From Comamonas sp. lk (GTDB lineage: Bacteria; Pseudomonadota; Gammaproteobacteria; Burkholderiales; Burkholderiaceae_C): DNA of 33,869 nt. Positions 3,297 to 31,751 of the stretch are shown one piece after another (the first letter of the stretch is position 1; the number at the start of each line of letters is the position of its first letter). The DNA is taken from NCBI GenBank assembly GCA_943324505.2, contig CALPLW020000007.1, positions 1 through 33,869 on the forward strand. The letters run 5' to 3'. The position numbers were made by a program, and so were the translations under genes. A model generated the notes under the pieces. That model was given only the letters and a program-made list of their open reading frames with translations, was not told the origin of the DNA and searched no databases.

Positions 3297-3318
3297 TATT
3301 TTTGCTCCAGGAGTAACA

Positions 3319-5226
3319 TCAACCCGGCTTGATCATGCCCTTGAATACGCTTGCCACACGCGCTGAGTCGTCGGACACGATCATGCGTATCAATGCGACT
3401 TTGTCATCGTAGGTATTGGCCGTATCCAGCATTTCTGCGGAGATATTTGATTTCTTCGCTTTCATTTTTGCTTTCATTTCCTCGAGCGTCTCCGATGCCG
3501 ACAGTTCCTTTTCACCAACATCCCCTGCGGCTTTTGCCTGAGACTCCACCTCCAGCGCCAGCGCTTCGTTTTGTGCCAACTGCAAGTTCGTTGCCGCGCT
3601 CTCCGCAGCCTCCTTGTCGCGGTTAAGCAGATGCATCACCACCGGACGGATCACCAACAAGGAGAACAGCACAAACACCAGGCCAAGGAAAGCCGACTTG
3701 ATGTTGGTGATCACTGCCTCATCCTTGTGCCAGGGCACTGTCAGATCAAGTGGCGCCTCGATTTCAAACTTGGCCTGCACGACGTTGACGACGTCTTTTC
3801 GCGCCTCGTCGAAGCCCACTACGCCCTGCACCAGTTGTTGCATGCGTTCCACCTCGTCCTCCGTGTAGGGATTCGGCTTGGCCGGTTGCTCTTCACCCTT
3901 CTCATTCTTGGGCTGTGCGACGGGCGGTCTTTCGTTGATAACGACCGCGACACTGAGGCGTTGAACTGTTCCGCTAGCGCTTTTGATATGACGCACGGAG
4001 CGATCGATTTCGTAGTTACGGGTAGTCCGTGCTGCTACTGTCGTCCTCTCGTCAGCCGCTGCAGCCTGGGGTGGTGTTGCAGCAGTGTTGAGCGACGTTG
4101 TCGGTGCCGCTGGTGCAGTATTTGACAGAGTGCCAGGGACACCGCTGGATTCTTTAGCGCTGTTTCGGTCTTCGCTGGTAACCTCAGAGCGGGTTTTGGG
4201 GCCTTTGCCTTGCGTATCAAAGTCTTCCAAGGTGGTTTCAGTTTGACTGAAATCCAGCATCAAATTGACCTGGGAACGGACATTGGCTTCACCAACAATT
4301 GGAGACAAGATCTGCATCACTCGCTGACGGTAGAGTTCCTCCATCGCCTGCTTGTGCTTGGTCTGACCTGCATTCATGCCCATTGATGCATCCGAATCTG
4401 AGTCAGTCATCAGCTTGCCAACGTTGTCCACAACGGTCACATTCTGAGGGGTCAACAAAGGTATGCTGGACGACACCAAATGAACAATGGCCTGTACCTG
4501 CATGGGACTGACGCTGCGGCCATTTTGCGGTGTCAAAACGACCGAGGCCTTTGGCGGCACGCGGTCGCGCACAAAGACCGATGGCTTGCTGGTCGCCAGG
4601 TGAACTCGTGCAGACTGAATCGAATCAATCTGCTGGATACTGCGTGCCAATTCCTGCTCTACCGCAGAGGTGTAACGCACCTGCTCCATGAACTGACTGG
4701 TCGTCATAGCGGACTGATCTTTCAGGCTGTCCAAACCGGTCGCTGCAGTTTTCGGAAGTCCCTTGGAGGCAAGAAAAATACGAGCCTCGTGGTATCGGCT
4801 CGCTGGTACTGTAATTTGACCCGTTCCCGAGTCAATGACCGGCTTGAACTCGCCAGTTCGTAGCGCTTCAAAGACGGCCTGCTGGTCGCCTTCGGTCGCA
4901 CCCATGGCCACCGGCCTGTATTTTGGCGCGTTCACCATGGTGTACGCCGCCGCAAACACCAAAAGCATCAGGGCAATGACAATCAAGGGCAGGGACTTTT
5001 TGATGACCGGCTGGTTAAACACCTCTTTAATTGGTCCAAACAGGCCCGAGCTATCGGCCAGCGCCACACTGCCACCGAGATAGTTCGTACTCAGACCGTT
5101 AGCGGGCCCCGCCTGACCTTCTGAATTAGACCGGCGGTCACGCCCGGACCTTGTGGTCAGTGCACGTACCTCGTCGGAACCCGGGAGCATAGTGCCGTCT
5201 GGTGCTGTTGCGGTTGCAGTCGCCAT
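3319..5226 (-). CDS. fliF: Flagellar MS-ring protein FliF
   Basis: FliF forms the MS ring in the inner membrane, the foundation of the basal body. At 635 residues it is longer than the usual 540-570. The extra length is an Ala/Thr- and Arg-rich N-terminal extension of about 60 residues and a long low-complexity periplasmic loop. A first membrane segment lies near residues 78-98 (LPLIVIALMLLVFAAAY). The YscJ/FliF ring-building motifs follow (AVFEALRTGEFKPV, then ARVHLATSKPSVFVRD). A second membrane segment lies near residue 520 (SAFLGLVFVLFSLLVI). The C-terminal tail (YDDKVALIRMIVSDDSARVA) is the FliG-binding site. It lies between fliE and fliG in the standard order. Confidence 0.97.
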   Translation of the reverse strand: MATATATAPDGTMLPGSDEVRALTTRSGRDRRSNSEGQAGPANGLSTNYLGGSVALADSSGLFGPIKEVFNQPVIKKSLPLIVIALMLLVFAAAYTMVNAPKYRPVAMGATEGDQQAVFEALRTGEFKPVIDSGTGQITVPASRYHEARIFLASKGLPKTAATGLDSLKDQSAMTTSQFMEQVRYTSAVEQELARSIQQIDSIQSARVHLATSKPSVFVRDRVPPKASVVLTPQNGRSVSPMQVQAIVHLVSSSIPLLTPQNVTVVDNVGKLMTDSDSDASMGMNAGQTKHKQAMEELYRQRVMQILSPIVGEANVRSQVNLMLDFSQTETTLEDFDTQGKGPKTRSEVTSEDRNSAKESSGVPGTLSNTAPAAPTTSLNTAATPPQAAAADERTTVAARTTRNYEIDRSVRHIKSASGTVQRLSVAVVINERPPVAQPKNEKGEEQPAKPNPYTEDEVERMQQLVQGVVGFDEARKDVVNVVQAKFEIEAPLDLTVPWHKDEAVITNIKSAFLGLVFVLFSLLVIRPVVMHLLNRDKEAAESAATNLQLAQNEALALEVESQAKAAGDVGEKELSASETLEEMKAKMKAKKSNISAEMLDTANTYDDKVALIRMIVSDDSARVASVFKGMIKPG

Positions 5227-5271
5227 AGTTGAGTCTTTCAGCGCAGAATATTACTTAGATGTCAGCCAGGA

Positions 5272-5610
5272 TCAAACCGGCATGTTCATCACTTCTTCGT
5301 AGGCCTTGAGGACCTTGTTACGAACCTGTAGCGTGGTCTCGAAGGCCAATGATGACTTTTGCATCTTGAGCACAAGATCCGTTAAGGGCACGGCTTCACC
5401 ACGCTCAAAGGCCTGGGCCGCCTGGCTGGATTCGACCTGCATGTCGTTGGTTTGGTTAACCGCGTTGCGCACCATCTCTGAAAAATCGCTTTTAGGTGCA
5501 GCAATGCCAGCAATGGACTGCTCGTCAAGACCGCCCGCCTGGGCGGCGTGGATTTGCATGGTCTTGAGCATGGAAGCAATATTTGCGGCCGAGGTAGCTC
5601 GTTCAATCAT
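5272..5610 (-). CDS. fliE: Flagellar hook-basal body protein FliE
   Basis: FliE is the small adaptor between the MS ring and the proximal rod and is exported early by the flagellar type III system. The 112-residue product has normal family length. It carries the conserved C-terminal block LTDLVLKMQKSSLAFETTLQ followed by VRNKVLKAYEEVMNMPV, which resembles other rod proteins. The start ATG 5610 is preceded on the minus strand by AAGGAAAC. The gene lies 36 bases after the bEBP and 45 before fliF. I see no separate sigma-54 motif in the short gap upstream, so transcription probably comes from the promoter at 7208-7222. Confidence 0.96.
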   Translation of the reverse strand: MIERATSAANIASMLKTMQIHAAQAGGLDEQSIAGIAAPKSDFSEMVRNAVNQTNDMQVESSQAAQAFERGEAVPLTDLVLKMQKSSLAFETTLQVRNKVLKAYEEVMNMPV

Positions 5611-5646
5611 GATGTTTCCTTAAAGAGGGGTGAATGCTGCAGGCTA

Positions 5647-7146
5647 TCAAGCGCTGGCCATTTGCCCGGGGCTGTGATCCCGCAACTGCGCCAACTTGTA
5701 GCGCAAAGTCCGGGGACTGATTCCCAGTTTTTGCGCCGCCTCAACTCTGTTTTTTGACGTCTCAAGCGCCGACATGATCACGTGGTTTTCGCTCTGCTTG
5801 ACCACCGCCTGTAACTTACTTCGGCCGACTAGATCCACGTCGCGGTAGGCCAAGGAGCTCTTCGTCTCTGCTGAAAAAAGTTCCACCGGAGAAGGAAACT
5901 CCGTCGACTCCTGCAACATGTCGAGCATGCCTGCAGGATCCGGGGCGTCGTCAAACATCAGGTGATGCGCATCAATGTGCCGGTCTGGGCAAAGCACCAT
6001 GGCTCTTTGGACAACGTTCTCTATCTCGCGAACATTTCCTGGCCATTCATAGGACAGCAGACAGGCTTGGGCAGCCGGGCTCACTGTCCAGGCTTGATCG
6101 CCTCGCTGGTGGCGAGCCAGCACACGCGCCACAAGGGGCAAAATATCACCGCGTCGCTCTGCGACCGGCGGGACACGCAACTTGAATGTGCTCAAGCGAA
6201 AATAAAGATCTTCACGGAATTCCCGCCGCTCGATGGCCAAACGCAGGTTCTTGTTGGTCGCCGCAATAACACGAACATCCAAAGCAACCGCACGTTCACT
6301 GCCCAGTTTGACGAGGCTGCGCTCCTGCAAGACCCGCAATAGCTTGGCCTGAAGTCCAATGGGCAGGTCACCTACCTCATCCAGAAAAATCGTACCGCCT
6401 TGCGCTTGTTCAAACATGCCCCGATGGTCCTTGACCGCGCCGGTGAATGCGCCCTTTTCATGGCCAAACAGCATGTCCTCAATCATGTGCTCCGGCAAGG
6501 CGGCACAATTCAAACCTATGAACGGACCTCCTTGCGACGGCGAGGACTCATGCAGAACGCGCGCGAGAACCTCCTTGCCTGAACCGGTAGGTCCCTCAAG
6601 CAGCACGGTCACCTGCGCTTGTGCCACGCGCTGTGCCAAAGCCAGTAACTTGATACTGACCGGATCGACGAAAACCACGCTTCTTACCGCATCCCGCGGC
6701 GCTGCTGCGCTAGGCAACTGCCTGGGTTGAACGGGGCTCACCGCGGGGATACGGGCGTTCGATACTAAATCTTCGTATCGTCCATTTGCACAAGCTAGCG
6801 CATCGCGCCACGCCTCAACAGACCAGTCGTCGGCAGCCAGCACGTGACAAGCACCATGGCGCATAGCGGCAACAGCCAGCTCAAGATTCTTCCGCTCAAC
6901 ACGGCAGATCACCACCAGCTTGGAATGGGTGTTCCTGAACGTTTCCCATATTTCCTTCAACAGCTCAATGTCAGAGCCCAGGCCCAAAACCAAAAGCGCA
7001 GGCTCAATATCCCGCCGTTTCAGCGCGCTTCCCAGTTCATCAAATGTGCGAACCATGGATATCGAGACGCCCGCCTGATCCAACAGCGTCTGCTCGGTAG
7101 GCTTGAGCGAACGAAAAGGGTCTAGCCAGAGGGCTGTGAAAGACAT
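5647..7146 (-). CDS. FleR/FlrC-like sigma-54 activator with degenerate receiver
   Basis: This is a bacterial enhancer-binding protein that uses ATP hydrolysis to open sigma-54 promoters. Its position directly before fliE matches fleR in Pseudomonas and flrC in Vibrio. Residues 1-120 have the outline of a receiver domain but lack its chemistry: the strand that should carry the phosphoacceptor Asp reads LLVLGLGSD. The AAA+ domain is complete, with Walker A GPTGSGKE (185-192), GAFTGA (232-237), Walker B IFLDEVGD and the WPGNVREIEN block. The C-terminus is a Fis-type helix-turn-helix (VEAAQKLGISPRTLRYKL). I chose ATG 7146 (MSFTALW), because the open frame upstream covers the sigma-54 promoter itself. 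No sensor kinase gene (fleS/flrB) is adjacent. Regulation is probably by promoter strength or protein contact rather than phosphorylation. Confidence 0.87.
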   Translation of the reverse strand: MSFTALWLDPFRSLKPTEQTLLDQAGVSISMVRTFDELGSALKRRDIEPALLVLGLGSDIELLKEIWETFRNTHSKLVVICRVERKNLELAVAAMRHGACHVLAADDWSVEAWRDALACANGRYEDLVSNARIPAVSPVQPRQLPSAAAPRDAVRSVVFVDPVSIKLLALAQRVAQAQVTVLLEGPTGSGKEVLARVLHESSPSQGGPFIGLNCAALPEHMIEDMLFGHEKGAFTGAVKDHRGMFEQAQGGTIFLDEVGDLPIGLQAKLLRVLQERSLVKLGSERAVALDVRVIAATNKNLRLAIERREFREDLYFRLSTFKLRVPPVAERRGDILPLVARVLARHQRGDQAWTVSPAAQACLLSYEWPGNVREIENVVQRAMVLCPDRHIDAHHLMFDDAPDPAGMLDMLQESTEFPSPVELFSAETKSSLAYRDVDLVGRSKLQAVVKQSENHVIMSALETSKNRVEAAQKLGISPRTLRYKLAQLRDHSPGQMASA

Positions 7147-7207
7147 TGTGTTGTCGCAATCTTGGAACGGTGTTAGTCGGATGAACGTCATTGACCGCAA
7201 TGTCTGA

Positions 7208-7222
7208 GCAAGACATGTGCCA
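7208..7222 (-). promoter_or_regulatory. Sigma-54 promoter for the bEBP-fliEFGHI operon
   Basis: Read on the minus strand, the site is TGGCAC-ATGTC-TTGC. It matches the -24/-12 consensus (TGGCAC N5 TTGC) at every conserved base with exact spacing. A start site about 11-12 bases downstream (near 7197) leaves a leader of about 50 bases to ATG 7146. An inverted repeat lies immediately upstream (7230-7245). Confidence 0.85.
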
Positions 7223-7229
7223 AGCCACA

Positions 7230-7245
7230 TGTCGACTTATCGACA
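7230..7245. promoter_or_regulatory. Inverted repeat, candidate bEBP binding site
   Basis: TGTCGA-CTTA-TCGACA is a perfect 6-base inverted repeat. Its proximal arm is 7 bases upstream of the -24 element. Its 14-base core GTCGACTTATCGAC matches 9 of 14 bases of the FleQ box as I remember it (GTCAATAAATTGAC). It shares the core CGAC-NN-ATCG with a site upstream of flhA (15548-15557). The role as an activator site is inference. Confidence 0.5.
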
Positions 7246-7378
7246 GCATGACATCAATGTGTCTGGGGGCTCGCTGGAATCTGTAGCCAAGGGGCGAAGT
7301 TACCGCTTATTCATCACCGGTTGAAACATCGGCACAGACAAACGACAATGTCAGAAACATCCAATACCTCAATCCAGC

Positions 7379-7885
7379 ATGTCGAAAACCACAACCGCAC
7401 TTCTTGTGCTCCTGCTGCTCATCGCCAAACCCGCCCATGTTGCTGCGGGACCTTGGGAGGAAGGGTACGCCGCCTACCAGCGCAAGGATTACACCTTGGC
7501 GGTGGAAAAGTGGCGAGTGGTCGCACAAGCCGGCAAAGCCGAGGCGCAGTCCCTGCTGGGCCAGATGTATTTTTTTGGTCAGGGCGTCAAGCAGGACTAT
7601 CCTCAGGCCATTACCTGGCTGCGTTTAGCAGCCGCCCAGGGCGAGGCCAAGGCCCAGTTCAAATTAGGCGCCATGCATGAAAATGGCCAGGGTTTTACGC
7701 GAGACAATATGAGAGCGGCCATCTGGTACACCCTGGCAGCAAAGCAGGGCCACCCACAGGCCAATGATGCATTGCAGCTCGTTTCTGCAGGCTTGTCGCC
7801 TAAAGAGAGCGCCTTGGCCAGTCGTTTGGCGCAAACCTGCATCAAGCGCGCCTTTAAGGACTGCGAATCGGTGTTCAGTCCCTGA
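7379..7885 (+). CDS. Secreted small Sel1-repeat protein beside motB (MotX-like candidate)
   Basis: A 168-residue protein with an N-terminal signal peptide (hydrophobic core LLVLLLLIA, Ala-rich cleavage region near residue 23), so probably periplasmic. It has about three Sel1-type helical repeats (GQMYFFGQGVKQDYPQAITW; LGAMHENGQGFTRDNMRAAIW) and a C-terminal tail with two Cys residues (TCIKRAFKDC). Sel1 repeats are alpha/alpha scaffolds for protein binding. Its 3' end overlaps the convergent motB end by 11 bases. Vibrio MotX, a T-ring stator factor, is also a small secreted Sel1 protein, so a motor role is possible. Such proteins are also common in Burkholderiales with other roles. No strong ribosome site precedes ATG 7379. 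Confidence 0.8.
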   Translation: MSKTTTALLVLLLLIAKPAHVAAGPWEEGYAAYQRKDYTLAVEKWRVVAQAGKAEAQSLLGQMYFFGQGVKQDYPQAITWLRLAAAQGEAKAQFKLGAMHENGQGFTRDNMRAAIWYTLAAKQGHPQANDALQLVSAGLSPKESALASRLAQTCIKRAFKDCESVFSP

Positions 7886-21962: not shown

Positions 21963-23123
21963 ATGTCGGAAGATAGCGCTGATCGAACAGAAGACCCCAC
22001 CGCGCGCAAACTCCAGCGTTCGCGCGAAGAGGGGCAAATAGCGCGCTCGGTCGAATTGACATCCGCTGCGGTCATGATTGGTGCGGTCTTGTCCTTCTTT
22101 GTGCTCGGCCGTTTTTGGTGGCAAGAGATACGCGCCAAGTTTGCTGCAGGCTTCACATTTGACCGCAAGACATTAGACACACCCACATTGCTTCCTCATG
22201 TGTTTTCGACCCAGATGGTGGATGCGTTTTTATTGTTCATGCCGATGATGTTGCTGACGCTTGTCTTGGCTGTGCTGGCTTCTGGCGCTATCGGCGGCTA
22301 TCTTTTTTCGGTCAAGTCGGTAGTCCCGAAATTTTCTAAACTTAGCCCGCTTGCTGGCCTCAAGAGAATGCTGGGAACCCACGCCCTGGTGGAATTGTTG
22401 AAAGCTGTTCTTAAATTTCTGCTCGTCGCCATCATCTTGCTGGTGCTGCTCGACAAACATTTTGCAGCGCTTGTCGGTATGGGAACCATGGGTCTGCAGC
22501 CAGCCTTTGAATTGACAGGCTCCTTGATGCTTGAGGCCTTGATTTGGCTGACCTTTGGTTTGGTCGTCATTGCCCTGATCGACGCGCCCTATCAGAGGCT
22601 GGCGTTCATGAAACGCATGCGCATGACCAAGCAAGAGATTCGGGATGAGCATAAGGACATGGAAGGCCGGCCAGAAGTCAAGGCGCAGATCAGACGACGT
22701 CAGCGCGAAATTGCGACAGCTCAAATGATGAGAAAAGTGAAGGATGCCGATGTCATCATCACCAACCCTGAGCACTTCGCCGTAGCACTCAGCTATGACC
22801 CGACTGCAGACGGTGCGCCCATACTGCTCGCCAAGGGCGGCGATTTTGTAGCCGCAAGAATTCGTGAGGAAGCCAAGATCCATGGCATCGAAATTTTTGA
22901 AGCAGCCCCATTGGCCCGTGCCCTTTACTTCACCACTGAAGTTGACCAGCCCATTCCTGAGTCACTTTACTTTTCCGTGGCTCAAGTGATCGCATACGTT
23001 TTCAGTCTCGCCAATGTTCAACCGGGCGTGGATCCCATGGCGCGGCCGTCGCCGACCATCCCGAAATCCATGTTGTTTGATTCCTCCGGCAAACAACTGT
23101 CGCCCGAGCCGGCCACATCATGA
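21963..23123 (+). CDS. flhB: Flagellar export switch protein FlhB (NPEH cleavage motif)
   Basis: FlhB is the export-gate subunit that cleaves itself and, signalled by FliK, changes substrate specificity. The 386-residue protein begins with the family signature EDPTARKLQRSREEGQIARS, has four membrane helices to about residue 215, then a charged connector (MTKQEIRDEHKDMEG). The autocleavage motif, usually NPTH, reads NPEH at residues 268-271. The flanking context (VIITNPEHFAVALSYD) is otherwise typical. The C-terminal tail is a Pro/Ser-rich extension. Its stop overlaps the next ATG by four bases (ATGA), which couples it to the SPOR gene. Confidence 0.96.
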   Translation: MSEDSADRTEDPTARKLQRSREEGQIARSVELTSAAVMIGAVLSFFVLGRFWWQEIRAKFAAGFTFDRKTLDTPTLLPHVFSTQMVDAFLLFMPMMLLTLVLAVLASGAIGGYLFSVKSVVPKFSKLSPLAGLKRMLGTHALVELLKAVLKFLLVAIILLVLLDKHFAALVGMGTMGLQPAFELTGSLMLEALIWLTFGLVVIALIDAPYQRLAFMKRMRMTKQEIRDEHKDMEGRPEVKAQIRRRQREIATAQMMRKVKDADVIITNPEHFAVALSYDPTADGAPILLAKGGDFVAARIREEAKIHGIEIFEAAPLARALYFTTEVDQPIPESLYFSVAQVIAYVFSLANVQPGVDPMARPSPTIPKSMLFDSSGKQLSPEPATS

Positions 23124-24571
23124 CGCTGCCCTTGCATCACCATGACGATGAACTGACCTTGGATCAGGCGATTTTTTTTCGGGTCTCTGACCGACTTCGT
23201 CTTGAGGGCTATGTCGCAGGCCTGACGCAAAGTGGCATGAGTCTGTCCATGGTGAGCAGCCAGGACGTGATTCTGGATCACTACGGCAAGTTGCTGGTGG
23301 CGAGGCTACGCGAGGCAGCCCCGCACATCGAGCTTGAGGTGTGCTTTCCAGCCAGCGCGGACGCGCTGATTTCCCGATTCAATGAAGTTCTGCGCACATG
23401 CTCCATTGAAGATGCGATGGGTAACCTGACCAACCAGGCCCCGCCAAAAATTTGGATCGTTCATGATGCCGCTGCTCTTCCTGATCATGAAATCCAGTTA
23501 TTGGCCCGTTTGGTGCAAAATTTTCCGGGTGCCAACATCAGGGTGGTGATGCTCTTGGCCGAATCCAGCCAGAAACACCAGCTGCTCAATGCCTTTGGCC
23601 GTCGGTTCATGCACTGGGATATTGAGCCTCCTACGGTTGGGCAAACGAAAGTTCTGCTGGAGCAGGCCCGGGCGCAGGGCCGCGAGACCTTGGTCAATGC
23701 TCTTCTTAAGCAGCTTGTCACATCCGATGAACTCCCGCCTTTACAGACCTTGCCAGAAGGAAATGCGATTCAAGTCGATCCGGTGGACGTCGCACAAAAC
23801 TGGCAAGTCAAACCCGCACGGGCAAACGCTTGGTTGTTGCGATGGCTACTGCCAATTTCCGTATTGCTGATTCTGTCTGGGATCGTTTTAACCCAACTCT
23901 ATGGCGGGTTTTCCATCAGTACCAGGGCTTGGGAATCAGTCAAAGCCGACTTCAAGCGCTTGTCTTCGCCTCAAAGCCTGCCAGCCTCAGCAGCCCCTGG
24001 CACTGCGCCCATCCCATCAGTTGCGGTTGCAGTACCCTACCCTGCTACGCTTCCAAGTTCCCAGGCAACACCCGGCATCCCCTTAGCCACCGCTTCGGCT
24101 GCCGCAATCCCAGAGCAGGCCGTATTGGCCACAGCTCCACCTGCTCCCACAACATCGGCGCCTGCTACCAAATCGCCGCCTACGACACCCATCGACATCG
24201 CGCCAAAAGAAGAGGTCATCAGCACGATAGCAGACCAATTGCGCGCCGGGCACGCCTGGATTCTGTCCATGCCTACAGACATTTTCTTGGTGCTGTATTC
24301 AACAAAGTCGTCCTACGCAGCTGCGTCAACATGGATCAAAGATCGGCCTGAGCTTGACAACCTGCACATTGTGGCCAACTACACCTCAGCTGATTCCGAT
24401 CTCAAGTACTCGATTGTTTCTGGGCCTTTCGACTCAAGGCTTGAGGCGACGCGTTTTGCAAAAGGCGCAGACATGCCCAAAAGCGCCTGGGCCATGCCGG
24501 TGAAACTGATGGCAGATCGGCTATCGCGTGAACCAAAGGCTGCAGCTGCTAAAGCAAAGGTGACCAGATGA
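23120..24571 (+). CDS. DamX-like membrane protein with C-terminal SPOR domain
   Basis: A 483-residue protein not part of the standard flagellar set. Residues 1-200 look like a degenerate AAA/GspA-type domain: a Walker-B-like strand is visible (PPKIWIVHDAAALPD), but the Walker A loop is missing. A single membrane helix lies near 237-260 (LLRWLLPISVLLILSGIVL). A Pro/Ala/Thr-rich periplasmic linker (about 280-365) leads to a SPOR-like domain (about 385-473; IVSGPFDSRLEATRFAKG is the signature part). This order matches DamX of Enterobacteria, which binds septal glycan. It is translationally coupled to flhB by ATGA and to the next gene by ATGA. A role linking flagellar assembly with the cell pole or wall is inference. 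Confidence 0.75.
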   Translation: MTLPLHHHDDELTLDQAIFFRVSDRLRLEGYVAGLTQSGMSLSMVSSQDVILDHYGKLLVARLREAAPHIELEVCFPASADALISRFNEVLRTCSIEDAMGNLTNQAPPKIWIVHDAAALPDHEIQLLARLVQNFPGANIRVVMLLAESSQKHQLLNAFGRRFMHWDIEPPTVGQTKVLLEQARAQGRETLVNALLKQLVTSDELPPLQTLPEGNAIQVDPVDVAQNWQVKPARANAWLLRWLLPISVLLILSGIVLTQLYGGFSISTRAWESVKADFKRLSSPQSLPASAAPGTAPIPSVAVAVPYPATLPSSQATPGIPLATASAAAIPEQAVLATAPPAPTTSAPATKSPPTTPIDIAPKEEVISTIADQLRAGHAWILSMPTDIFLVLYSTKSSYAAASTWIKDRPELDNLHIVANYTSADSDLKYSIVSGPFDSRLEATRFAKGADMPKSAWAMPVKLMADRLSREPKAAAAKAKVTR

Positions 24572-25371
24572 AAACACCCGAGTTGATCAATAGTTCTGCC
24601 CCGCACCGTATTGCCGTGGATGAGGGCAGCCGCGACGCCAAGGGGCGCAAGTCATATGTCGTTGAAGAAGATCGACAGCCGGCAGTCAATTCGGACGACA
24701 TGGCTGACGCCATGGATGCCGCAAACAGAAAAAAAGTGTCTTTTTCTGCCGAAACTACAACGAATGCGGAAAAAAAAGAATCCATAAACCCCGACCTTGC
24801 AGTCACCAAAGCAAGTGTGTCCGAATCAGCTGTTCAAGATCGATCCGTAAATCAAGCCGCACCGCCCAAGTTTGAAGTTGCTCAGCCAATCTCCATTCAA
24901 ACACCGACTGAAGACATCAGCATCCCCAGTGCAGGCACCAAGATAACGACGCCTGGGCACCATGAACCTGACCCTGAGATTACGGATGACATGGCTCACG
25001 CCATGGACTCCGAAGCCAGAAAAAAAGTTTCTTTTTCTGGCGACATAGCACCGCACTCAGGGAAAAAAGAATCCATCTACCCCGAAGTTGAAGTCACAAA
25101 AGCAAGTGTGCTCGAATCAGCTGATCAAGATCGGCCGGCGAGTCCAGCCACACTGCTCAAGTTGGAAGTCGCTCAGCCGCTCCCCATGCAACGTCCGGCA
25201 GAAGAGATCAGCACCGAATCTGCGCCGAGTACAGTTGCCAAGACAACGGTCCTTGAGCACCCTGAACCCGACCCTCACATTGCCGCCCGGCTCGAGACTC
25301 TCAAAGCCCAAAATAACGCCGTCAGAACCAGCCTAGATGCCTTCGATTCGCAATCATTGGCCAAGGCCTGA
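24568..25371 (+). CDS. Hypothetical protein with ~97-residue internal duplication
   Basis: I do not recognise this 267-residue, hydrophilic protein. It has no signal peptide or membrane helix. Two tandem copies of about 97-100 residues begin at residue 43 (DDMADAMD...RKKVSFS) and residue 140 (DDMAHAMD...RKKVSFS); each passes through a KKES-(I)-P segment, VTKAS, EVAQP and ends with EPDP. A Lys/Leu helical tail follows (ARLETLKAQNNAVRTSL). It overlaps the SPOR gene by ATGA and has a good AAAGGTGA ribosome site, so it is expressed with it. The poly-A runs encode the Lys-Lys pairs. The product is probably a soluble or disordered partner of its neighbours. Confidence 0.7.
   Translation: MKTPELINSSAPHRIAVDEGSRDAKGRKSYVVEEDRQPAVNSDDMADAMDAANRKKVSFSAETTTNAEKKESINPDLAVTKASVSESAVQDRSVNQAAPPKFEVAQPISIQTPTEDISIPSAGTKITTPGHHEPDPEITDDMAHAMDSEARKKVSFSGDIAPHSGKKESIYPEVEVTKASVLESADQDRPASPATLLKLEVAQPLPMQRPAEEISTESAPSTVAKTTVLEHPEPDPHIAARLETLKAQNNAVRTSLDAFDSQSLAKA
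24694..25284 (+). repeat. Tandem duplication of about 291-300 bases
   Basis: The first copy starts near 24694 and the second near 24985. Both the protein and the DNA (including AGAAAAAAAG-TNTC-TTTTTCTG and GAATCCAT) remain clearly similar, which suggests a fairly recent duplication. Confidence 0.75.
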
Positions 25372-25403
25372 ATACCTTCATCAAACCAACATCGGTAGAT
25401 GCC

Positions 25404-26336
25404 ATGAACGAACCCACCGCAGCCGCTAACCCGGATTCTGCCCAAGACCTCACCGCCAATATGGACGCGTCAGAGGACATCAACACAACCATCTCCGGCG
25501 ACACACCTGATGCGGACTCGTCGGCGCTGGCGCAGATGGACGAAGACCCCCAGATCGTCGACATCAAACTTACCCTGATCGACGCTGCTGAACTCGCTGG
25601 CCGTGCCGGCGTTCAAGCTGCCAAAGCAGGCGCAGACATGCACGCAGCTGCCAAAGACTTGGCAGTAGACCACGCCACACAACGCAAACACGGCATCGTG
25701 GTTCTTTCTGTTTTTGCCGTTTTGGTCGTGATGGGCCTGCTTTTGTTCGGTGTGATGTCCATTCGGCTCCAACAAAGGATCAACCAGTTAGACGCCATGC
25801 TACTGGCGGTGGGCAAGCGGGTTATCGCCATGGACGAGTCACTCAAGCTCGTGAACAACTCCGGCGAAGTCTTCCAAGCCATTGCAGAAAGGCAAGACAC
25901 GATCTCGCGCCAGCAAGTGAAACTTGACACACGGGTTGAAGATCTCATGAAAGCGGCGCAAAGCGCCATTCAAACCAACGCGCAAACCATTGACACCCAA
26001 GGCAAAGACAACGCCAAGCGCCTAGCCGCAGCAGAGGCAAACATCCAGAGCCATGCAACAGCACTGAAAACACATTCAAACAAGTTGCAGGCGGCCCCGA
26101 CTGCGGCCCCGCGTCCAGACCCGGCGCTGATAAGGCGAGAGGTCGAGGCCGTTTTGCAGCGCCAGCAAAAGGCCGTCAGTTCTGCGCCGGTGGCTGCTGC
26201 AACATCCCCGGTCGCAGCACCCGCCAATGTGCCGCCAGTTCCTGCGGTGAAAACGGCGCCGCCAGCCAAGGCAGCAGAGGCCCTGGTGCGCTACCCCAAA
26301 CTACCTAATCCAAATGGGACAACTTCGGCGCCCTGA
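25404..26336 (+). CDS. Single-pass membrane protein with coiled coil, function unknown
   Basis: A 310-residue protein I do not recognise. It has an acidic N-terminus (about 1-60) and an Ala-rich amphipathic stretch. One membrane helix lies near residues 97-119 (HGIVVLSVFAVLVVMGLLLF). A long Gln/Ala/Lys coiled coil (about 120-235) follows, and the tail is Ala/Pro-rich. Orientation is probably N-in with the coiled coil in the periplasm, but the charge bias is weak evidence. It lies 32 bases after the duplicated-repeat gene and ends 18 bases from the convergent bEBP gene. Together with the two genes before it, it forms a trio attached to the end of the fliK-flhB operon. Confidence 0.75.
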   Translation: MNEPTAAANPDSAQDLTANMDASEDINTTISGDTPDADSSALAQMDEDPQIVDIKLTLIDAAELAGRAGVQAAKAGADMHAAAKDLAVDHATQRKHGIVVLSVFAVLVVMGLLLFGVMSIRLQQRINQLDAMLLAVGKRVIAMDESLKLVNNSGEVFQAIAERQDTISRQQVKLDTRVEDLMKAAQSAIQTNAQTIDTQGKDNAKRLAAAEANIQSHATALKTHSNKLQAAPTAAPRPDPALIRREVEAVLQRQQKAVSSAPVAAATSPVAAPANVPPVPAVKTAPPAKAAEALVRYPKLPNPNGTTSAP

Positions 26337-26353: not shown

Positions 26354-27490
26354 CTAGTTGGCGCGTAATCCGAACTTCTGAATTTTTTCAATCAGCGTCG
26401 TACGCTGCAAGTTCAAGATACGGGCAGTTTGTGACACATTACCCTTGGTGCGGCTGAGGGCCTGGGAAATCAGATCTCGTTCAATCTCTGCCAACCGGTT
26501 TTTCAGCGACAAGCCTTCTGGAGGCAAAACTGCCAAGTTTTCAGATAAAAAGGTCATTTGCTCCAAGGCACTGGCGTTGCTCTCATCATAGGTCGGCGCC
26601 GAAACTTCCCCTACCACCCCATCTGCCACGGGCGAGTTTTCCCAAGCGGGAGCATCTGGCAGTGGGCTCGCTTCCTCCTCCCCGAGCCCACCTTCTTTTG
26701 CAAGCAACTGAAGTGCGGCCAGCCCCTTGGGGAGCAAAGCGGCTGGCAATGAACGCAGGCTCAAGCGCTGCCCGGCAAAGAGGGTGCTGAATCGGTCGAC
26801 CAAATTTGACAGCTCCCGAACGTTACCGGGCCAGTGGTAGGCTGTGAGCGCACGCATAAAGTCGGTAGAAAAACTGACAGGCAGCTCGCCCTCTGCCATA
26901 AATCTTTGTGCGAAATAGTTCAAGAGCAGGGGCACATCGGCGGATCGCTCACGCAACGGCGGTGTACTGATTGGCAACACATTCAGCCTGTAGTACAGGT
27001 CCTCCCTGAATCGACCCGCCACTATTTCGGCTTCCAGGTCTCGGTGCGTCGCAGCAATCACCCGTACATTGATGGACACGGCCTTTGCACCACCAACCGG
27101 GTCCACCACCCGCTCCTGTAAAACACGCAGCAATTTAACTTGCAGCTCCAAGGACAAGTCGCCGATTTCATCCAAAAAGATGGATCCATTGTGGGCCAAC
27201 TCAAAGCGCCCCTTTCGGTCTGTGGCTGCTCCGGTAAAGGCCCCCTTGCTGTGCCCGAATAGCTCACTTTCGATCAAGTCTTTGGGAATAGCCGCGCAGT
27301 TGATGGGTACAAAATTTCCAGCCGAGCGCCCAGATAGATCATGCAGCGAGCGCGCCACAATTTCTTTGCCTGTGCCGCTCTCTCCGGTGATCAATACCGT
27401 CGAGCTGGACAAGGCAACCACCGGCAGCAAGCCACGAATGGCACGCACAGCGTCGCTGTCACCGATGAATTGGGGTGTATTGACGGCCAT
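26354..27490 (-). CDS. FleQ/FlrA-like sigma-54 activator lacking an N-terminal domain
   Basis: This bEBP of 378 residues begins directly with the AAA+ domain. A stop codon two codons upstream of ATG 27490 excludes an N-terminal receiver or FleQ domain in this frame. Walker A is GESGTGKE (36-43), GAFTGA is at 83-88, then Walker B SIFLDEIGD and the WPGNVRELSNLVDRF block. The C-terminal Fis helix-turn-helix (ILNLQRTTLIEKIQKFGL) closely follows the FleQ/FlrA end (RTTLVEKMRKYG), so this is the likely flagellar master activator. Without an N-terminal domain it may be controlled only by FlhG (fleN), whose gene is in the window. It is transcribed divergently from the Sel1 cluster. Confidence 0.85.
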   Translation of the reverse strand: MAVNTPQFIGDSDAVRAIRGLLPVVALSSSTVLITGESGTGKEIVARSLHDLSGRSAGNFVPINCAAIPKDLIESELFGHSKGAFTGAATDRKGRFELAHNGSIFLDEIGDLSLELQVKLLRVLQERVVDPVGGAKAVSINVRVIAATHRDLEAEIVAGRFREDLYYRLNVLPISTPPLRERSADVPLLLNYFAQRFMAEGELPVSFSTDFMRALTAYHWPGNVRELSNLVDRFSTLFAGQRLSLRSLPAALLPKGLAALQLLAKEGGLGEEEASPLPDAPAWENSPVADGVVGEVSAPTYDESNASALEQMTFLSENLAVLPPEGLSLKNRLAEIERDLISQALSRTKGNVSQTARILNLQRTTLIEKIQKFGLRAN

Positions 27491-27551
27491 TGGCTAACAG
27501 GCAAACCTTTGCATAGCACGGACTCCGGATAACTGTCCAAACCGTGAACCG

Positions 27552-27569
27552 ATTTGACAAAATTTGACA
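27552..27569. promoter_or_regulatory. 10-base-period direct repeat between divergent genes
   Basis: ATTTGACA occurs at 27552-27559 and 27562-27569, a one-helical-turn spacing typical of a protein-binding site. It lies in the 186-base gap between the FleQ-like gene and the Sel1 gene. Each copy contains TTGACA, so one may double as a -35 box; a -10 at TAACAG (27576-27581) would be poor. The minus strand gives GTCAAATTTTGTC, partly like a FleQ box. Function is uncertain. Confidence 0.35.
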
Positions 27570-27676
27570 GGATCATAACAGGCCAAAAGGCTGCTGGTGA
27601 CATGCGATTGCTACCGTTGGTGTTCGTGTAAAATTAGCACCCAGCCACACGTCTTGATCGTTGGGAGACTGCACCC

Positions 27677-29008
27677 TTGAAAGGCAAGCCTTTGAATCTC
27701 CAACTTGCTGCCCTCAACAACTTGGGCCTGATGTATGCCAGTGGCCAGGGCGTTGAGCAAGACTTCGCAGAAGCCCTGAGGTGCTACCGGTTGGCTGCAG
27801 AGCAGGGCGTGGCCAGTGCGCAATCCAATCTTGCTGTGATGTATGCCAACGGTCAAGGCGTTGCGCAGGACGACCAAGAAGCCCTCAAGTGGTACCGGGC
27901 CGCAGCCGAACAAGGACTGCCCTACGCTCAATCCAACCTCGCTGTCATGTACGCCAATGGACGAGGCGTAGAGCCTGATTACCATGAAGCCCTGAAGTGG
28001 TACGAAGCGGCAGCGGCACAAGGCGATACCGTGGCACAAATCAACTTGGGCGTCATGTATGCCAACGGCCAAGGGGTGAACCAGGACTATGAAAAAGCGC
28101 TTAGCTATTACCAAAGTGGCGCCGAGCTCGATGACCCAGTAGCTCAATACGGTCTAGGCGTGATTTACGCCCAAGGCCACGGGGTAAAACGCGATGTCAA
28201 GAAAGCCTGCCATTGGTTCACTCTCGCGGCAGAGCGCGAGCACCCGCAAGCTCAATTTAATATCGGTTTTTTCTATTCTCAAGGGCAAGATCTCCCCATT
28301 GACTATCGTAAAGCTGTTAGCTGGTATGAGCGCGCAGCGAGTCACGGCGAGGCGGCTGCACACTACAACCTGGGGGTGATGTACAGCACTGGACAAGGCG
28401 TTGAAACGGACCACGAAAAGGCGCTGCAATGCTACCTGGCTGCGGCACACAAAGGCGACGCTGCCGCCCAGTACAACCTGGGGTTGATGTATGCCACCGG
28501 CCAAGGAACGACTCGAGACGACACCGTCGCCATCGCCTGGTACCAACTTGCTGCGGACCAAGGCGATGCACAGGCTCAGTACAACCTGGGCGTGATGATC
28601 GCCAACGGGCTGGGCACAGGCGCTAACCACACGATTGCCAAACAATGGCTTCAGCTGGCGGCCGACCAAGGTGACGCACAGGCACTTTACAACTTGGGTG
28701 TGCTCCATCAAGACGACACCCACCCCGACGCCAACTATGGGCAGGCTCTGGCCTGCTTCCGAATGGCTGCGACCCAAGGCCATGACGATGCCAAGGTCGC
28801 CCTGGGTTGGTTGTATGCCAGAGGCTTAGGCGTATTGCAAGACTATGTCCGGGCGCACATGTGGTTCAATTTGGGCGCCATCAGCGGACATGCTGAGGCG
28901 ATTAAGGGCCGTGACTATGTTGCACAGCAAATGATTGCACCCCAAATCGCAGCTGCCCAAGACATGGCGCGTCTGTGCCAGCAAGCCAACTTCCAAGGCT
29001 ATGACTGA
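27677..29008 (+). CDS. Sel1-repeat protein, eleven units
   Basis: A 443-residue protein made of 11 tandem 36-residue Sel1 repeats plus a C-terminal cap. The pattern is AQxNLGxMYxxGxGVxxDxxxAxxWYxxAAxxG. Such solenoids scaffold protein complexes. No signal peptide is visible at the chosen start, so it is predicted cytosolic. I start at TTG 27677, nine bases after GGGAG. An earlier in-frame ATG (27602) encodes MRLLPLVFV and then hits stops (TAA at 27629, TAG at 27635). Repeat 1 lacks the usual preceding helix, so the N-terminus may be truncated or mis-called. It heads a three-gene cluster with an 11-base gap to the next gene. Confidence 0.82.
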   Translation: MKGKPLNLQLAALNNLGLMYASGQGVEQDFAEALRCYRLAAEQGVASAQSNLAVMYANGQGVAQDDQEALKWYRAAAEQGLPYAQSNLAVMYANGRGVEPDYHEALKWYEAAAAQGDTVAQINLGVMYANGQGVNQDYEKALSYYQSGAELDDPVAQYGLGVIYAQGHGVKRDVKKACHWFTLAAEREHPQAQFNIGFFYSQGQDLPIDYRKAVSWYERAASHGEAAAHYNLGVMYSTGQGVETDHEKALQCYLAAAHKGDAAAQYNLGLMYATGQGTTRDDTVAIAWYQLAADQGDAQAQYNLGVMIANGLGTGANHTIAKQWLQLAADQGDAQALYNLGVLHQDDTHPDANYGQALACFRMAATQGHDDAKVALGWLYARGLGVLQDYVRAHMWFNLGAISGHAEAIKGRDYVAQQMIAPQIAAAQDMARLCQQANFQGYD

Positions 29009-29019
29009 ACCCATCTGAC

Positions 29020-30321
29020 ATGCATCAGCTGCCAACTGCGACACAAGCACGCCAAAGCTCAAGCCAGGCCTTTTTCTCTGATCCACTCCAAGCTGTCAGT
29101 AGCCAGGTCGGACTGGCCCGATACACGCTCAATGCCTGCATTGAAGGTCCCTGCGGACGAGCCTGGTTCGATTTAATGCTCCAGGGTCTTCGACGCGGCC
29201 TGGCGGTCACTCTCGGCGTAGAAGCCATCCCAGAAAATCTGAATTCGGCCATTGCCTGGGAGCGACTGACGGCCATGGGCGGCCAATTGATCTGGCTGGT
29301 GCCAGACCAGATTGCCCTGCACACCTCAGTATGCGTCATTGACGGGCTGGTGGTGATGAGTGGCAACTTTGCCCAACCCGGCCCCCTACCTGGCACAAAT
29401 TTCAATGGCATCCTGATCCAAGACAACGGCGATACAGTTACCAAATCTACGGCTGCCTTGATCGCGCTGCAGCAAAACAATCAATGGAAGCCCGAGGCAA
29501 CAGATCCGGCTCCGTCCGCTCTGGCAGTCGCGCAAATCGAAGCCGTCGCTGCACCCAATGGCTGGCAATTAACCAGCCGCCTGGAGCCCTTACAGCAAAT
29601 TGCGCTCTGGCAATTCCAGGTGCTTGAGCAACACGCCTTGGCCATGGAGGCCGATACGGCTGAGGCCCTGCGCAAGACACATGCTTTTGATCACGCGCAA
29701 GACCAGGCTATTGGCGAATTAATGCGGCAAGTGCTGGACGCAAAACAGCGCTGCATGATTCAACGCCATGCCCAATTCGGAGGGCAGGAGAACCAAGAAG
29801 AAGCCGAGGCAGCGCAAGCCGCTTTTGCAACATTTGAGCAGACTCACCAAGCCTTGGCGCAGACCCCGGTAGCGAAGCCCTTGGACGCCCAAGAGCAGGC
29901 CGATATCAAGCAGCTTTACCGAAAGTTGGCCATGATCTGTCATCCTGACCGCGTTGAGGAGGGGCAAAAGTCCCGGGCCGAGGCGGTCTTTCAACAATTA
30001 CAGCGAAGTTACCGCAGCAGCGATTTTGCAAGCATGAGAAACCTGGAGGCCACACTTCATGCGCAGTCTCTGGACGATCGTCAACCTGCACCTCCAGAGC
30101 AGGGGCTTGCGAGCCTAAGCTGGCGACTGGCCAATTTGCAGGAGAGATTGGCAAGTCAGCGCGCCACCCGCGACGCCATTTTTCGCAGCCCTACTTGGCG
30201 TACCCTCAGCACTCAAAGTAACTGGGCGCTTTGGTTTTCGCAGCAGGCGTTGTATTTGCAGGACGAAATCACCCGATACGAGCGCGCGTTGGAAGCTATG
30301 ACAACCCAGGCCGGCCTATGA
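29020..30321 (+). CDS. Degenerate PLD-like domain joined to a J-domain
   Basis: A 433-residue protein. Residues about 30-150 resemble one half of a phospholipase-D fold: CGRAWFDLMLQGLRRGLAVTL corresponds to the helix-strand unit, and the HKD site reads H101-T-S-V-C-V-I-D108, then SGN116. The catalytic Lys is replaced by Ser and only one motif is present, so catalysis is doubtful. Residues about 290-345 are a J-domain with the essential HPD at 308-310 (LYRKLAMICHPDRVEEGQKS), which stimulates Hsp70/DnaK ATPase. An acidic helix separates the two, and the C-terminus is helical. Its stop overlaps the next start (ATGA). It may deliver clients to DnaK; the client is unknown. Confidence 0.7.
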   Translation: MHQLPTATQARQSSSQAFFSDPLQAVSSQVGLARYTLNACIEGPCGRAWFDLMLQGLRRGLAVTLGVEAIPENLNSAIAWERLTAMGGQLIWLVPDQIALHTSVCVIDGLVVMSGNFAQPGPLPGTNFNGILIQDNGDTVTKSTAALIALQQNNQWKPEATDPAPSALAVAQIEAVAAPNGWQLTSRLEPLQQIALWQFQVLEQHALAMEADTAEALRKTHAFDHAQDQAIGELMRQVLDAKQRCMIQRHAQFGGQENQEEAEAAQAAFATFEQTHQALAQTPVAKPLDAQEQADIKQLYRKLAMICHPDRVEEGQKSRAEAVFQQLQRSYRSSDFASMRNLEATLHAQSLDDRQPAPPEQGLASLSWRLANLQERLASQRATRDAIFRSPTWRTLSTQSNWALWFSQQALYLQDEITRYERALEAMTTQAGL

Positions 30322-31751
30322 GCCAGTCGCTGACACTGGTAGCAACAAGCCAGAGCCAAGTTGCCATAAAGCAGCGTCTGGACATCGTGGCCAGCACCTT
30401 GTCGAGTCTGGAGAGCCGGCAAATCATGGCGTTTTTTCGTGAGCACGCGGCCTTGCTGGCTCAATGCCTTTACCGACACTATCCCTTAACACCCGAAATA
30501 CTAGCCCACCAAGTGGTCGATTGGGATTGGCGTCGCCTCAGCAGCAGCCGCGCACTGGCTTGGTCAGAACAACTCATCGACGAGCACACCAACACCCTGG
30601 ATTGGACAGCCCTCAGCCAAAATCAGGCGGTTCCATGGACGGCATCACTGATCGAACGGAACACCCAGTACTGGAATTGGCCACTTTTGAGTGACAACCC
30701 CAGCCTGCCCTGGAGCATTGATTTACTCAAGGCCAACACCTACCAGTGGCATTGGGTGACATTGAGTCGTAGCCGGCACTTACCTTGGACATCAAGTTTC
30801 ATAGCTGCCAATCTGCACCGATGGGATTGGACTGCGCTGAGCTGGAACAGTGCACTGCCACTGACATCGGCCCTGCTTGAGCGTCACTGCGACCACTGGG
30901 ACTGGAGCGGTCTTAGTGCCAACCTGGCTTTGCATGCCGACCATCAACTTGTGGGCCAGTTCGCACGCTTCTGGCACTGGACGTGGCTCAGCAGCAACCC
31001 CGGACTGCAATGGAGCGAGCCACTGATCGACGAGTTCGCTGCCCAATGGGACTGGAAAGCCCTCAGTGCCCAAGCAGCGCTGCCCTGGACAGCCAATTTG
31101 ATTGCCCGCTACGGCTCGCGTTGGTGCTGGACCACGCTCAGCAGCAACACCAGCTTGCCCTGGCAACCAGATCTTATTGAGAGCTGGATTGACCGATGGA
31201 ACTGGGCTGCCTTGAGCAAAAATCCTGCCCTCTGCTGGGGCCAGGCATTGCTCGAACAATACGCTGACAAGTGGAATTGGCACGGGCTGAGCCAGAACCC
31301 TGCCCTGCCCTGGTCGACGTCACTCCTGACCCTGCACCAGGACCACTGGGATTGGGATGCTTTGAGCTGGAACACCGGTCTGCCATGGGATGATGAGCTG
31401 ATCGCCAAGTTTGATCATCGTTGGGATTGGGCCGGCCTGAGCAGTAATGCTCAACTGCCGTGGAGCGAGTCCCTTATCGCGAGACATGCAGACCTTTGGG
31501 ACTGGGAGCGCCTGAGCGCCAACCCGTCACTGCCTTGGAGCGCGGCATTCATCGAGCGTTATCAGGAATTCTGGAACTGGGCAACCTTGAGCAGCCAGCC
31601 CAGCCTGCCTTGGAGCCCGGATTTCTACCGCGCCTTGAACCAGCACTGGTTCGCCTCACTGGTCAGCGAACACCAAAGCTTTGACATCCAGACACTCAAT
31701 GGTGCTGACATTCACGCTCTTATGCCAATTCTCGGCAGCGACACAGTTTGA
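30318..31751 (+). CDS. Trp-rich repeat protein, fifteen 25-residue units
   Basis: A 477-residue protein beginning at ATG 30318, which overlaps the previous stop; the frame upstream to 30231 is a shadow. A helical N-terminus of about 65 residues precedes 15 near-perfect units of 25 residues with the pattern WxW-xx-LS-xN-xxLPW-xxxLIxxxxxx. Trp, Leu and Asn positions are nearly invariant. A short non-repeat end follows (after about 443). I recall similar Trp/Asn/Pro (DWxxLSxNP) repeats in giant-virus proteins, but have not searched. No signal, membrane helix or known domain is visible. It should form a regular solenoid with stacked aromatic residues. Function unknown; it is coupled to the J-domain protein. 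Confidence 0.85.
   Translation: MSQSLTLVATSQSQVAIKQRLDIVASTLSSLESRQIMAFFREHAALLAQCLYRHYPLTPEILAHQVVDWDWRRLSSSRALAWSEQLIDEHTNTLDWTALSQNQAVPWTASLIERNTQYWNWPLLSDNPSLPWSIDLLKANTYQWHWVTLSRSRHLPWTSSFIAANLHRWDWTALSWNSALPLTSALLERHCDHWDWSGLSANLALHADHQLVGQFARFWHWTWLSSNPGLQWSEPLIDEFAAQWDWKALSAQAALPWTANLIARYGSRWCWTTLSSNTSLPWQPDLIESWIDRWNWAALSKNPALCWGQALLEQYADKWNWHGLSQNPALPWSTSLLTLHQDHWDWDALSWNTGLPWDDELIAKFDHRWDWAGLSSNAQLPWSESLIARHADLWDWERLSANPSLPWSAAFIERYQEFWNWATLSSQPSLPWSPDFYRALNQHWFASLVSEHQSFDIQTLNGADIHALMPILGSDTV
30522..31646 (+). repeat. 75-base tandem coding repeats (W-repeat array)
   Basis: Fifteen units of 75 bases. Amino-acid conservation is strong while the DNA of different units has drifted, so the array is maintained by selection on protein. 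Units 2 and 6 are the least regular: LDW replaces WxW in unit 2, and the LPW is lost in unit 6. Confidence 0.85.

Follow-up and report, generated by a model that had tools for sequence, protein, structure and literature searches.

In Vibrio alginolyticus, SflA joins a DnaJ domain to a periplasmic TPR/Sel1-like part and is described as suppressing misplaced flagella in cells that lack FlhF and FlhG (PMC7226244); AtcJ of Shewanella is described as a J domain followed by 21 residues, a tail that binds the operon partner AtcC, with growth in the cold as the phenotype and with operon partners to which PMC6715715 assigns no known domains. Inactive PLD-like domains have been described in FAM83/DUF1669 proteins, which anchor a kinase (PMC6008594), and the Fla1 flagellum of Rhodobacter sphaeroides, which was acquired laterally, has FlgT and FlgP in its basal structures (PMC7277832). 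Here we analyze a 33,869-nucleotide stretch of the Comamonas sp. lk genome (hereafter the window, taken at its full length), a flagellar gene cluster in which four neighboring genes encode a Sel1-repeat protein (Sel1a), a J-domain protein with a PLD-like domain (J), a protein with aromatic 25-residue repeats (W) and a second Sel1-repeat protein (Sel1b). We treat these four genes as one cassette, for which computation supports one gain, a fixed gene order, the overlap of J and W, purifying selection, an intact HPD motif, an incomplete PLD motif and, by hydropathy, proteins that lack leaders and membrane segments.

The points of likeness to SflA, as given in PMC7226244, are the DnaJ and TPR/Sel1-like domains, flagellation control and a bacterium with FlhF and FlhG. 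SflA is, however, one chain with a single transmembrane segment and a periplasmic Sel1-like domain, whereas the cassette consists of separate proteins predicted to lack membrane segments, lies within a flagellar locus and adds the PLD-like and W parts, with no Sel1 repeat found in J by Pfam. AtcJABC likewise has a dedicated J protein tied to operon partners, but AtcJ is short, whereas the window J protein has 433 residues and an internal J domain, and matches NCBIfam ActJ at E 0.017. Judged from the sequences, structural features of both systems fail and the cassette belongs to neither. No whole-protein match to the J/PLD/W/Sel1 combination was found in Pfam, NCBIfam, PADLOC or PHROGs, and in the one open-access library covered, searches for its composition, for the W repeat and for a pair of flagellar systems in this group gave no title or opening lines of an abstract describing such a cassette. 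J proteins of the dedicated kind and Sel1 scaffolds are already known; joining them to a W-repeat protein and a decayed PLD domain appears to be new.

Conservation and probable single gain of the cassette

The initial annotation had proposed Sel1a, J and W as a module and named their co-conservation in relatives as its test. That co-conservation was found: the Sel1a-J-W order is kept in all eight loci with a covering contig, the window included (G000, G019, G111, G110, G016, G034, G012 and G073), and on this ground chance neighborhood was rejected. The three genes do belong together, but a fourth gene, Sel1b, and the stable insertion of the set within one flagellar locus type had been overlooked. 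Sel1b follows W in nine of nine loci (G000, G019, G111, G016, G034, G012, G073, G075 and G026), W of G026 being a fragment at a contig end and Sel1b being truncated by the contig in G000, G111 and G016. The tight packing noted at the outset matches the open reading frame (ORF) coordinates exactly, with an 11-base spacer between Sel1a and J (29009-29019) and an ATGA overlap between J (ATG at 29020, stop at 30319-30321) and W (ATG at 30318). An ATGA or GTGA overlap of J and W was present in 10/10 pairs, among them the non-flagellar pair of genome G024. Identity to the window falls to 29-32% for J and 43-44% for W in G012, G034 and G073, with the order still kept. Both borders of the cassette, a sigma-54 activator on one side and LPP20/FlgT on the other, lie on one contig in four loci (G019, G034, G012 and G073), and in G112 a Sel1 gene stands at the contig end.

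W was searched for in 89 genomes of the genus (E 1e-3), in 60 relatives and, with the G024 W protein as query at 1e-10, in 398 genomes of the phylum, whereas J was searched for in 60 relatives, in 299 family genomes (profile, 1e-15), in 300 order genomes (G024 J protein, 1e-15) and by peptide patterns in genome contigs (5 loci). The first few candidates per genome were scored in the J family profile search, the G024 J order search and the FlgT family search; phyla beyond Pseudomonadota were seen through plasmid, phage and viral collections, and most genus genomes were fragmented. W was detected in 11 of the 89 genus genomes, the window's own counted, and in the 10 cassette genomes it occurs at a single place each, with none away from the flagellar locus. 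It is rare in the phylum, where the G024 query found 1/398 genomes, the window's own. J was detected in 8/60 relatives, two of these being weak matches confined to the J domain region, and the peptide patterns found J relatives in MAGs labelled Betaproteobacteria bacterium WB5_2A_081 (96%), Comamonas sp. lk (81%), Rhodoferax sp. OV413 (78% and 54%) and a Comamonadaceae bacterium (55%).

FlgT homologues were found in 11/89 genus genomes and, at 1e-12, in 11/298 family genomes (own genome counted in both), and these loci reveal the junction without the cassette. Activator, LPP20 and FlgT are contiguous in G109 of the same genus. Among nine further loci from five other genera, eight, spanning four genera, have a junction free of Sel1, J and W; the same activator adjoins LPP20 in seven of them, and in G322 about 0.75 kb separates it from FlgT. 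The ninth locus, on a short contig of G908, has about 0.6 kb from FlgT to the activator and no room for the cassette. A tree of ten concatenated proteins from 19 genomes (quick method without bootstrap, rooting read from the other genera, G110 left out) placed the nine cassette genomes and G112 in one clade, with G109 as sister and G843 next (SH-aLRT 99, 99 and 98); several rows of this tree were less than half filled, and warnings were raised of a long G843 branch and of uneven composition. An earlier 11-row tree, midpoint-rooted and without outgroups, had placed G109 beside the window subgroup. The empty junctions in other genera and the tree with outgroups make one gain the simplest reading, and favor it over a loss in G109; the cassette was thus most likely gained once, between the sigma-54 activator and LPP20-FlgT, in one clade. 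An origin of J-W as a unit from a phage or plasmid was rejected, as no relative of the J or W alignment was found in viral contigs and no relative of the window J protein on plasmids. The activator/LPP20/FlgT/FliK-like/FlhB-like block seen in G109 and other genera looks in itself like a conserved variant of a flagellar locus.

Compared with G111, the ratio of nonsynonymous to synonymous substitution rates (dN/dS) was 0.168 for J, 0.148 for W and 0.050 for Sel1a, with 0.033-0.063 for FliM, FliP, FliR, FlhB and the activator and 0.154, 0.53 and 0.141 for three unnamed genes between flhB and the activator. Whole-gene values ranged over 0.168-0.291 for J (5 comparisons), 0.120-0.191 for W (4) and 0.048-0.059 for Sel1a (4), dS being saturated in the G110 and G016 comparisons of these ranges. 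J and W are hence under purifying selection, and Sel1a is as constrained as core flagellar genes. The G+C content of Sel1a, J and W (57%) and of the visible part of Sel1b (61.3%) is near that of the window (55.5%) and so gives no clear sign of recent arrival.

The cassette is also associated with a second flagellar type. With FlhA as marker of flagellar systems, two matches were found in eight of the ten cassette genomes, three in G034 and one in G110; among ten other genus genomes nine had one FlhA and G030 none. In a 28-row tree, FlhA of the cassette-type loci split off (10 rows, 100/100), and within the window's genus this clade is far diverged. Other-type FlhA was seen in nine of the ten cassette genomes, the second match of G075 being an untyped fragment of 117 residues; cassette-type FlhA was not found in G110, and the extra FlhA of G034 could stem from the 8% contamination of that genome. 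G112 carries other-type FlhA together with a cassette-type FlgT locus. Exactly one FlhA was found in all nine genomes with an empty junction (G109, G843, G1004, G1029, G931, G961, G834, G322 and G1008) and one in G872, whose junction was not seen, while G908, with one full FlhA and two fragments, speaks against a strict link between the cassette and a second system. The association is striking, yet only a correlation: since the cassette has a single origin, the association amounts to one event, for which shared ancestry accounts equally well.

The J, W and Sel1 proteins

The Sel1 scaffold and the Hsp70 co-chaperone domain read from the sequence at first were both recovered by Pfam, the former as PF08238 (Table 1) and the latter as DnaJ PF00226, which scored 29.3 bits in the window J protein against a cut-off of 27.8. 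Three J homologues tested (G012, G034 and G024) scored slightly under this cut-off (25.8, 26.7 and 27.5 bits), and the HPD motif is intact in 10/10 aligned J proteins.

The other part of J had been taken for a broken lipase-like fold. By profile it is a Nuc-type single-HKD PLD domain with an incomplete motif: the profile of the 10-row J alignment matched endonuclease Nuc (PDB 1byr, E 4.4e-9), mitochondrial cardiolipin hydrolase and FAM83B, and PF13091 was over its cut-off in all three homologues tested (G012, G034 and G024; PLDc_2 in G024 at E 5.4e-23), while the Pfam scan of the window J protein alone did not detect the PLD-like part. PF07894, the model for the pseudo-PLD domains of FAM83, was over cut-off in the same three homologues and below it in the window J protein; FAM83 proteins differ in being vertebrate and tied to CK1. 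The HKD stretch reads HHKFCLID in G024, DRSFCL(I/V)D in G034, G073 and G012, and HTSxCV(I/L)D in six others, and where G024 has GSFN downstream of it, the flagellar copies have G(N/D)FA or GDFK. The complete H-x-K-x4-D motif of Nuc-type nucleases is therefore present in one of the ten aligned J proteins, that of G024, whereas Lys and the downstream Asn are replaced in 9/9 flagellar copies and His in 3/9, with Asp retained. Because Lys and Asn are gone in all nine, the PLD domain of the flagellar copies is likely to be catalytically inactive. The G024 J-W pair is not part of a flagellar locus; the contig ends close by, upstream of its J gene, and next to the pair are genes read as housekeeping and a 417-residue gene for which no Pfam family was over cut-off and one partial plasmid match was found. 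Elsewhere, in genome G215 (3-2036), a single-HKD PLD gene with an intact motif is immediately followed by a gene read as protein-kinase-like, possibly another PLD-based module.

The aromatic repeat of W, predicted from the sequence, has a period of exactly 25 residues in 15 copies, with 138 identities at lag 25 versus 9-46 at the other lags in the range 18-31, and the N-terminal region (residues 1-62) is common to ten homologues. By profile, W matches the phage family phrog_3532, of unknown function, in three stretches (E 7.4e-20), its own period being 25 residues. No convincing W-repeat family was found in the Pfam, NCBIfam and PADLOC scans, and PHROGs gave families of unknown function only. 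Matches to Sigma_1s (W of G012) and CaM-KIIN (W of Salinibacter), over the Pfam cut-off and without a passing stretch, were rejected as repeat artefacts, and a match of the W profile to a TIGR02646 protein in the PDB (E 1.1) as chance. The repeat also occurs in Listeria phage LPJP1 and on one plasmid each of Acinetobacter, Salinibacter, Prevotella, Hymenobacter and, weakly, Klebsiella. On the Hymenobacter plasmid (2088-7163), a protein of 1691 residues annotated as DarT family carries W-type repeats in the same chain and stands after a gene annotated as AAA domain-containing. In LPJP1 (1653-7643), seven adjacent genes appear to encode a related repeat, and the single gene scanned (2565-3611) matches phrog_3532; no J-type gene was noticed in this one phage neighborhood viewed, although no search was aimed at it.

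Identities as MerG, MotX, AlgK or ExoR were rejected for the Sel1 proteins, the NCBIfam matches being far under their cut-offs. Hydropathy maxima of Sel1a, J, W and Sel1b (the latter from G075) ranged from 0.69 to 1.38, the highest being the best 19-residue mean of J, within its PLD-like part; the N-termini of LPP20, FlgT and the LysM-like protein reached 1.66-2.06. Since this simple scan detected no leader or membrane segment in the four cassette proteins, they are probably cytoplasmic, where DnaK is.

Layout of the window

The window is contig C7 of a genome of 3.7 Mb in 390 contigs (86.7% complete). Its flagellar cluster comprises FliI-, FliH-, FliG-, FliF- and FliE-type genes, a sigma-54 activator, MotB, MotA, FliS and a sigma factor, then a ParA-type GTPase gene read as flhG, an SRP54-type GTPase gene read as flhF and FlhA, and continues with FliK, FliL, FliM, FliN, FliP, FliR and FlhB, with fliQ named from its position and relatives. 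Toward the 3' part the order is flhB, three unnamed genes (23120-26336), a sigma-54 activator on the minus strand and the cassette (Table 1). Full-length Sel1b has 854 residues in G075, and an overlapping piece of it lies on contig C258 of the window genome. Downstream of the cassette, the relatives carry an LPP20 lipoprotein (34.0 bits, cut-off 25.9) and an FlgT-type protein (FlgT_C 24.0 bits, below the cut-off of 27), followed by a protein read as LysM-like, without a Pfam match, and by FliK-like (20.8 bits, below the cut-off of 29.8), FlhB C-terminal-like, FlgN and FlgM proteins.

Table 1 Position of the cassette, its domains and its left border in the window.
Feature	Position	Strand	Evidence
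Left border: receiver-less sigma-54 activator, oriented divergently to the cassette	26354..27490	-	PF00158 231 bits, HTH_8
Sel1a: Sel1-repeat protein, TTG start, leaderless by hydropathy, strongly constrained	27677..29008	+	PF08238 346.7 bits (cut-off 30.7), E 6.4e-107, 11 stretches
J protein (433 residues): PLD-like domain with incomplete HKD, helical middle, J domain, conserved C-terminal region	29020..30321	+	PF00226, 1byr profile match, 10-row alignment
PLD-like domain of J, residues 16-150 (limits set by us from the alignment)	29065..29469	+	PF13091 in G012, G034 and G024 homologues; alignment
HKD site of J, HTSVCVID (G024: HHKFCLID); His and Asp kept, Lys replaced	29320..29343	+	Alignment
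J domain, residues 286-345 (limits set by us); HPD at 29941-29949	29875..30054	+	PF00226, alignment
W protein: 15 W repeats between a conserved N-terminal region (residues 1-62) and a C-terminal region	30318..31751	+	Alignment, repeat period, phrog_3532
15 contiguous copies of the 25-residue W repeat, residues 69-443	30522..31646	+	Lag analysis
Sel1b: second Sel1-repeat protein, truncated by the contig end	32133..33869	+	PF08238 392.5 bits (cut-off 30.7), E 2.2e-121

Other features of the window were also recorded. A third Sel1 protein (7379-7885, plus strand), of 168 residues and with a leader-like N-terminus, adjoins motB; its NCBIfam MotX match is far under the cut-off. The three unnamed genes have relatives in other loci of the same type, two of them carry a hydrophobic segment, and the one at 24568-25371 is fast-evolving (the dN/dS of 0.53 given above). 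The sole exact TGGCAC-N5-TTGC site of the window (7208-7222, minus strand) falls just inside the first ATG of the ORF of the other sigma-54 activator (5647-7230), so that the annotated start of this ORF may need revision.

Possible roles of the cassette

Our preferred reading, tentative and held at somewhat less than even confidence, is that of a domesticated J-protein/scaffold cassette that would direct DnaK to the assembly or placement of this flagellum, working in a manner like SflA. The cassette would have entered the activator/LPP20-FlgT junction of a locus with FlhF- and FlhG-like genes and then been domesticated. Its PLD domain, presumed inactive, would act as a binding or dimerizing scaffold with W as its partner, the Sel1 proteins would serve as cytoplasmic docking scaffolds, and the J domain would activate DnaK locally, so that the assembly of this flagellum, its number or its placement would be remodeled or gated, by analogy with Vibrio SflA. 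Recruitment of DnaK to the repeat proteins, taken by itself, is plausible. A more specific version, in which a nuclease-based PLD-J/W pair was captured, lost catalysis and joined two Sel1 scaffolds to form an organelle-specific Hsp70 recruiter for correct building beside a second, unrelated flagellar system, appears unlikely in its entirety.

Several observations weigh against a flagellar role of this kind. The DnaJ match spans only model positions 13-50 of 63, and the window group retains His and Asp of the HKD motif, loss of catalysis being a prediction. The G024 pair indicates that J-W is not intrinsically flagellar, and G109 and the other genera carry the locus type free of the cassette, which is therefore dispensable for it. 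Core flagellar genes evolve more slowly than J and W, and shared ancestry by itself would be expected to yield the parallel distances of J, W and Sel1a (r about 0.95). A sigma-54 promoter scan allowing up to 2 mismatches gave 72 sites in the window against a shuffle mean of 60, with none in the region upstream of Sel1a (27491-27676), where a sigma-70 scan found none either, and an alignment of seven of the eight upstream regions (G034 left out) revealed no obvious shared promoter.

Some of these observations would suit J-W as a conflict module that reached a flagellar locus and has kept a role in defense, with a PLD nuclease and, as its sensor or immunity partner, the W-repeat protein. The G024 copy, with an intact HKD motif and outside a flagellar locus, is consistent with such a module, as are the match of its PLD domain to DrmC models (best E 5.3e-8), the W repeats on plasmids, in one phage and in a protein annotated as DarT, and the part of HKD that the window group retains. 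We nevertheless consider continued defense doubtful, as all nine aligned flagellar copies are without Lys and the downstream Asn yet constrained, W occurs at one place per cassette genome, and no PADLOC model matched either W protein tested, with weak matches only for the window J and Sel1a.

The position of the cassette between flagellar genes, where it stays in every descendant with informative contigs, and the failure to find W off this locus in the ten cassette genomes likewise render improbable a general stress or cold chaperone operon, like atcJABC of Shewanella, that is merely situated in a flagellar locus, even though AtcJABC is built on the same plan, a J protein dedicated to operon partners whose function is not known (PMC6715715), and the locus type occurs cassette-free in other genera. 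Least convincing, and in our estimate quite improbable, is that Sel1 and W are structural parts of the cytoplasmic face of the motor or of a stator scaffold and that J is a folding chaperone reserved for them, for which speak the NCBIfam matches of both Sel1 proteins to MotX, a flagellar Sel1-type family (far under cut-off), and the neighboring ring-type genes LPP20 and FlgT, but against which stand the periplasmic location described for FlgT (PMC7277832) versus four cassette proteins that are leaderless by hydropathy, and the occurrence of the same locus type without these proteins in other genera.

The cassette would represent a traceable domestication, with an intact-HKD relative, descendants with a decayed motif and an empty insertion site in near relatives. 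The finding also draws attention to a scattered W repeat that has no convincing family in the databases scanned for one. A flagellar role, if true, would add to SflA another example of flagellar control that involves a J protein and Sel1-type scaffolds, and the direction of DnaK to one organelle would become testable in a cell with two flagellar systems.

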